From: a virus
Direction: 5' to 3' (one strand)
IMG/VR virus record: IMGVR_UViG_3300043395_000560
Span: 1 to 61,729 of that record
DNA length: 61,729 nt
Program-made: the position numbers and the translations under genes
Notes under the pieces: model-generated
Databases searched by the model: none
Told to the model about the DNA's origin: nothing
The model's input: only the letters and a program-made list of their open reading frames with translations
Part shown: positions 1,707 to 2,174 of the stretch, piece after piece
Layout of the letters: every line of letters starts with the position of its first letter
How positions within the stretch are numbered: the stretch's first letter is position 1

Positions 1707-1802
1707 TATCTTTCTCCTAGTTAAAAACCATACCTTGCCCAACCAAGCCGGGCCACGCCCCGACACAACTCGCCGGATCTAGCCACGCCCTGTAATGCTC
1801 AC

Positions 1803-1841
1803 GCATCGCACAGAAGCCTTTTACAAGCCCCTGTACGCTGC
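1803..1841 (-). repeat. Array hairpin 1
   Basis: GCATCGCACAG pairs with CTGTACGCTGC (9 of 11 positions). It is followed by a small GCTGC-CTA-GCAGC stem at 1837-1849. Shares its flanks and lower stem with hairpins 2 and 3. Confidence 0.6.
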
Positions 1842-1905
1842 CTAGCAGCTCCGTGCCACACCCCGCCTGGCCCTGCCAATCCTTGCCAGACCGAATAATG
1901 CTTAC

Positions 1906-1944
1906 GCATCGCTCAGCAGACTGAATCAACCTGCTGAACGCTGC
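1906..1944 (-). repeat. Array hairpin 2
   Basis: GCATCGCTCAGCAG pairs with CTGCTGAACGCTGC (12 of 14 positions). The upper stem differs from hairpins 1 and 3 on both sides, keeping the pairing. It is followed by GCTGC-ATA-GCAGC at 1940-1952. Confidence 0.65.
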
Positions 1945-2017
1945 ATAGCAGCCCTTGCCTAGCCGTGCCGGTGCTTGCCCCGCCGTAACTTGCCACGCCG
2001 TACCCGATGACGCTTAC

Positions 2018-2056
2018 GCATCGCACAGAAAGCTCAGAGAACTCTCTGTACGCTGC
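2018..2056 (-). repeat. Array hairpin 3
   Basis: GCATCGCACAGA pairs with TCTGTACGCTGC; 10 of 12 positions pair and one more is a G-U wobble on the leftward strand. It is followed by GCTGC-ACA-GCAG at 2052-2063. Confidence 0.65.
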
Positions 2057-2174
2057 ACAGCAGACCTTGCCCAACCCCAACCAGCCGTATCCAACCGCAA
2101 CTCACCATGCCAGGCACTGCCCCGCCGGACCACGCCACGCCCGAACATGCCGTGCCGAACGACAGTTGACATCC

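Follow-up and report, generated by a model that had tools for sequence, protein, structure and literature searches.

What does a run of phased pentamers, broken by hairpins, do in the genome of a phage? The question is raised by positions 1725–2156 of the window, by which we mean the whole 61,729-nt stretch of IMG/VR virus record IMGVR_UViG_3300043395_000560 that was analysed. The original prediction had spotted the GGY/NN pattern from the raw letters and proposed a TRAP-like RNA target for a ring-forming protein, with a replication origin or a DNA-bending array as alternatives. Our reading, to which we give a probability of about 95%, is that a tailed phage carries a VIPR locus here and that the arrays are vrRNA (guide-RNA) genes.

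The phased pentamer repeat itself is real. Across 1725–2156 identity at lag 5 is 0.391 against 0.285 ± 0.022 in 1000 dinucleotide shuffles (shuffle maximum 0.368), and the phase is kept in relatives; these were the two points on which the original prediction had offered to be refuted. A phased-GG detector, reading the RNA-sense strand, called five GGY/NN arrays in the 61.7-kb window (2062–2156, 1950–2004, 1838–1892, 1725–1789 and 1018–1087), every one of them on the minus strand and inside 1018–2156, four upstream of the gene that we name vipr and one downstream. It called none on the plus strand of the window, none in 20 shuffles of the window and none in 82 other viral loci (1.46 million strand-bases). 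Its calls for arrays 1, 2 and 3 extend into the tails, and trimmed ends are used from here on.

Array 1 (2064–2156, approximately 18–19 GGY/NN units by in-phase reading and the detector) holds an unbroken 5-nt phase, an apparent slip near 2070 reading as GTTgg GGTtg GGCaa GGTct. Array 2 (1952–2004) gives 12 NN when the flanking dinucleotides at 2005–2006 and 1950–1951 are included, and array 3 (1849–1892, from the detector, its end trimmed at the tail) has about 9 units. Array 4, the leader array (1725–1789, 13 units), stops 18 nt short of the vipr start codon. Array 5 (1018–1087, 14 units) lies directly 3′ of the vipr stop codon and reaches the AGGAG of the next ORF; like the others it is on the minus strand. 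The arrays thus run from about 9 to 19 units each, some with several non-GG units. Read in phase, arrays 1–4 comprise 52 units of which 39 are GGY, close to the roughly 49 units and 38 fitting ones counted at first sight. The unit, a GGY triplet every 5 nt, and the leftward RNA as functional strand were rightly named at the outset, the arrays being sense to vipr; all four tracts then listed are confirmed, and the fifth, on the far side of the gene, had been missed. In the nearly identical locus L006 (upstream of 4001) the leader-array guide differs from that at 1725–1789 of the window, with little change in the 3′ end of the leader array, in the other arrays or in the tails; one guide alone seems to have been replaced.

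The stretch separating arrays 4 and 5 holds an ORF of 204 aa (1092–1706, minus strand; ATG at 1706 after AGGAG). Its product matches only phrog_4652, a group of unknown function, and no Pfam family. Phmmer against the PDB gave one relevant match, the SUSP1 Vipr protein (36pp, E = 9e-4), which was also the single match of a 28-member family profile (E = 1.3e-9); this alignment lies chiefly in the C-terminal third, GIGDFRPTYGRF in the family versus GVGDWRPRFGRF in SUSP1 Vipr. The AlphaFold model (mean pLDDT 82.6, with low confidence in a glycine-rich segment at 184–189) has as its best Foldseek matches type VII Cas7 and type III Csm3 (E from 7.8e-6 downward), and all 50 matches listed are CRISPR effectors. 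On homology and predicted fold the protein is a Vipr, a Cas7-like RAMP. Class 1 CRISPR-Cas systems, with their Cas7 and Csm3 RAMPs, share this predicted fold, and helical assembly on a guide RNA is likely here too. The window differs from them in having no repeat-spacer array and no other visible cas genes, in a period of 5 rather than 6 nt, and in a gapped pairing code. The earlier statement that the tracts are not a CRISPR, not coding and not a product of slippage was correct; the units are GGY/NN pentamers in 5-nt phase, with no long repeats or spacers.

VIPR is described in PMC13142463 (bioRxiv, April 2026; version 2, June 2026), the sole such description returned by our literature search, as a CRISPR-like, RNA-guided system. 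According to the main text of that preprint, vrRNAs, each consisting of 9–16 YNNGG repeats and a structured 3′ tail, are bound by a RAMP-like Vipr protein; the NN pair with double-stranded DNA, one target base, mostly the codon wobble base, being skipped; and binding represses genes, the natural targets being mostly satellites and prophages. It gives Escherichia phage SUSP1 and a Pseudomonas fulva prophage as examples, and distinguishes seven types, one subtype carrying hammerhead ribozymes between the arrays (PMC13142463). The first of these features, tandem YNNGG repeats beside the gene, is represented in the window by the five arrays.

The second, a structured 3′ tail, is present for arrays 1–3, and arrays 4 and 5 have no tail. 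Tails of 55 nt were delimited by alignment, covariation and folding at 2009–2063 (vrRNA 1), 1897–1951 (vrRNA 2) and 1794–1848 (vrRNA 3), all on the minus strand. They correspond to the three hairpins of common design noticed originally, and their folding z-scores are −4.9 to −6.1. In a gapless alignment of 12 distinct copies, drawn from the window together with seven close relatives, the 8-bp helix at the centre has changed on both sides at seven of its eight positions, with 99% of cells pairing and 19 double changes versus 5.5 in shuffles; the pairing is destroyed when the partners are slid. Covariation proves this middle helix only. The invariant tail ends can be folded as two small hairpins (CUGC-NNN-GCAG and GAUGC-GNRA-GCAUC) or as a single extended stem, the latter being preferred by RNAfold and RNAalifold. 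The tails of L007 and L009, which carry CUGGAAACAG or CUGGCAACAG without the 3′ element, would favour the small 5′ hairpin. An Rfam scan of 900–3100, hammerhead ribozymes included, gave no match up to E = 1. Other tails occur among the relatives: upstream of vipr, L011, L014 and L015 each have the 55-nt type in alternation with a second type (CAGCGGATAGGNGATT...AGTCNTCCTTCC), and L069 has repeated copies of a different one (TTATTGCAAGGAATAGGGCGG...CCGCCTTATGACGTGCAAT) at 4442–4879.

Relatives of vipr were found in 74 viral contigs at 52–100% identity, and 69 of these have phased GG arrays on the sense strand of the gene, upstream, downstream or both; at that cut-off no array was detected in L020, L057, L063, L076 and L077. 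A second detector found arrays in 73 of 77 loci, including the window, DSL-LC04 and SUSP1, where it recovers three, and counted 238 sense arrays versus 2 antisense. In cellular contigs arrays lie near the gene in 32 of 33 loci, none of them antisense. Both antisense cases are in L072, which has two arrays of opposite orientation at about 380–490 and 1974–2074 upstream of vipr, perhaps part of a second system. Very long arrays of many units, interrupted by hairpins, occur downstream of vipr in L040, L044, L045 and L058, and in L069. It might be argued that the arrays are a replication origin or a bending element with phased protein contacts on the DNA, as the exact 5-bp phase and the intergenic site would allow, but we give this next to no credence given that the arrays keep to one strand relative to the gene, occur to either side of vipr as well as in chromosomal contigs, and carry RNA tails with compensatory changes. 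Both of these DNA-based alternatives in the original prediction are thus rejected.

The consensus of 4783 units is G (96%), G (90%), C or T (93%) and then near-random N, N; since GG and, mildly, Y entered into detection, the GG and Y figures are not independent, the NN being free. RNA G-quadruplexes, with which GG every 5 nt agrees through the G2N3 motif, would need no pyrimidine at position 3, nor phase over more than 10 units, nor NN that match phage genes, and we regard them as an exceedingly improbable explanation of the GG tracts.

The cellular contigs with vipr relatives, most of them assembled from metagenomes, include Phycisphaerae, Thermomonas, Burkholderiales, Alicyclobacillus and Stenomitos. 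Among GenBank phages DSL-LC04 is the nearest; its host is given as Gammaproteobacteria, and the host of the window phage is likely proteobacterial. In DSL-LC04 (L080, OR003939.1) the Vipr homologue at 3992–4609 bears the annotation "helix-turn-helix transcriptional regulator" and has flanking arrays, one of which sits within a long inverted repeat (GGGTTTCTTAGTGGGG ... CCCCACTAAGAAGCC).

Elsewhere in the window, the next ORF (797–1051) has no Pfam match and is common only to the near-identical L006; no candidate accessory (vap) gene with a wider distribution than this was found beside vipr. A direct repeat, GTGGATTCGTATCCAC, lies at 1–50 within a reading frame that is left incomplete by the end of the window and encodes a ParB-like motif (VDGFHRYFAAKKI). 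A TTGACA-containing element recurs at 2165–2190, 2818–2840 and 3045–3075, twice beside GGAACAA (e.g. CCGGAACAATGTATTGACATC), and also upstream in L007 and L008; it looks like a shared phage promoter or operator.

The third VIPR feature, the match with one base skipped, was sought family-wide. When 2298 distinct 10-unit guide windows were slid over both strands of the window and the collected loci (1.34 million characters, spacers included), a 1-nt skip gave 99 matches at 19 or 20 of 20 bases; these are mutually dependent, many being overlapping windows or one guide against homologous loci. At the same cut-off there were none at skip 0 or skip 2, none with reversed guides and none in three sets of shuffled dinucleotides. 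A skip of 3 gave 18 matches, every one 20/20, which are provisionally put down to incompletely masked copies of the arrays themselves. Among the loci matched, a guide of L050 fits the end of the vipr gene in L039, L041 and L055, and guides of L054, L055, L071 and L078 fit vipr-flanking genes in many relatives. The bases that had been described as varying are on this showing the guide information.

For the window itself the clearest case is guide 2, whose NN are cg ac gt aa ac gg aa cc ac ta aa ct (1952–2004 plus one dinucleotide on each side). Its 8-unit seed found 24 viral contigs, and in one of these, L097, positions 6031–6065 match at 24 of 24 bases with a 1-nt skip. The codons there are CGC ACG GTC AAG ACC GGC AAG CCC ACC TAC AAG CTG (RTVKTGKPTYKL), and all skipped bases are third (wobble) positions. 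The chance that all eight flanking bases would match in any of the 24 seed matches is about 4e-4. At homologous sites guide 2 matches 22/24 bases in L094 and L085 and 21/24 in L104, L101 and L026, and it matches 20/24 in L164 and in the Thermomonas flagellata contig L165; the sites in L026 and L165 were found independently of the 8-unit seed. The best matches in the loci at skips 0, 2 and 3 reach 18, 18 and 17 of 24. One small gene has homologues in L097, L085, L094, L101, L104 and L026; in L097 it is followed by a Sak4-like AAA_24 ATPase gene and a DUF669 gene, and homologues of it also stand just upstream of vipr in L018, L020, L022, L025 and L026. The window has no homologue of this gene and its best guide-2 match is 16/24, so no self-target is seen. 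As judged from these matches, guide 2 would be directed against a gene of rival phages under the 1-nt-skip code. Relatives of guide 2 in L006, L008 and L014 keep the same odd units (GTT/GTC and GCA/GCC/GCT), with a few NN changed.

Guide 2 had no exact match at 20 specified bases in genome contigs, and guides 2, 4 and 5 had none in 369 genomes of the Thermomonas class even when as many as 3 mismatches were allowed. For guides 1, 3, 4 and 5 no significant target emerged, the matches from seeded scans of viral contigs failing on extension. Two candidates were discarded. Guide 3 fits L111 at 18/18, but six seed matches would yield about 0.4 such fits by chance alone, and the longest open frames at that place misfit; for guide 1 the seed falls on an RVVPGSL motif in L157 and L162, where the flanks fail (2–3 of 14).

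By analogy with the SUSP1 and P. fulva work, as far as the main text of PMC13142463 sets it out, the arrays would be transcribed leftward as vrRNAs, and Vipr subunits would line up on each guide, probably with one subunit to a pentamer, holding the GGY triplet and displaying the two variable bases. These dinucleotides would pair with double-stranded DNA as NN-x-NN-x, one target base being skipped each time, and the bound complex may then repress the targeted gene of a rival phage or prophage. The original idea that a repeating protein assembly reads the array RNA is probably right, the partner being the Cas7-like Vipr encoded between the arrays. Phage-borne RAMP-fold Vipr, GGY/NN arrays with structured 3′ tails flanking the gene, and matches to competing phages in which wobble bases are skipped are common to the window and to the VIPR loci so described; the window differs in that its Vipr clade is distant in sequence from that of SUSP1 and its 55-nt tail is unlike the SUSP1 tail, and, from the known systems as presented there, in the several non-GG units of some arrays and in its two tail-less arrays, one entering the vipr ribosome-binding site, and no conserved vap gene was found in it.

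These tail-less arrays bring back the question of control in cis. TRAP, the trp RNA-binding attenuation protein, has as targets regularly spaced triplets in leader RNA. The window likewise has regularly spaced triplets in leader RNA, but they are GGY rather than (G/U)AG, the associated protein is a RAMP, and arrays with targeting information lie on both sides of the gene; a TRAP-like target as first proposed was therefore not borne out. That the arrays serve as a cis-acting RNA target only, Vipr binding its own leader for TRAP-like control of translation without acting on DNA, we consider very unlikely. It would account for the nearness of array 4 to the vipr start, an array ending within 60 nt of that start in 34 of the 54 loci scored, but not for arrays downstream of the gene, nor for structured tails, nor for NN that match phage genes under a 1-nt skip, which a pure operator would not need. 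In addition to guiding, a cis-acting role may be partly true of the tail-less arrays. Array 4, which enters the vipr ribosome-binding site, might tentatively be seen as a guide and a translational operator at once, free Vipr coating it and shutting off its own synthesis, although we think this somewhat improbable. Neither tail-less arrays entering the vipr ribosome-binding site nor feedback by Vipr was found in the main text of PMC13142463.

The VIPR principle is already published, and this locus adds independent sequence support and a concrete target. A separate lineage of phages would thereby join VIPR, one whose relatives occur in over 70 viral contigs as well as in contigs of Thermomonas, Phycisphaerae, Alicyclobacillus and other bacteria, and the code has been tested from sequence in a clade far from SUSP1. 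If the feedback through array 4 is true, Vipr output would track the supply of guides. The target that can be named for guide 2 is the small gene before the Sak4-like ATPase, a homologue of which lies just upstream of vipr in other VIPR phages, and with it the use of such a system by one phage against another becomes directly testable.
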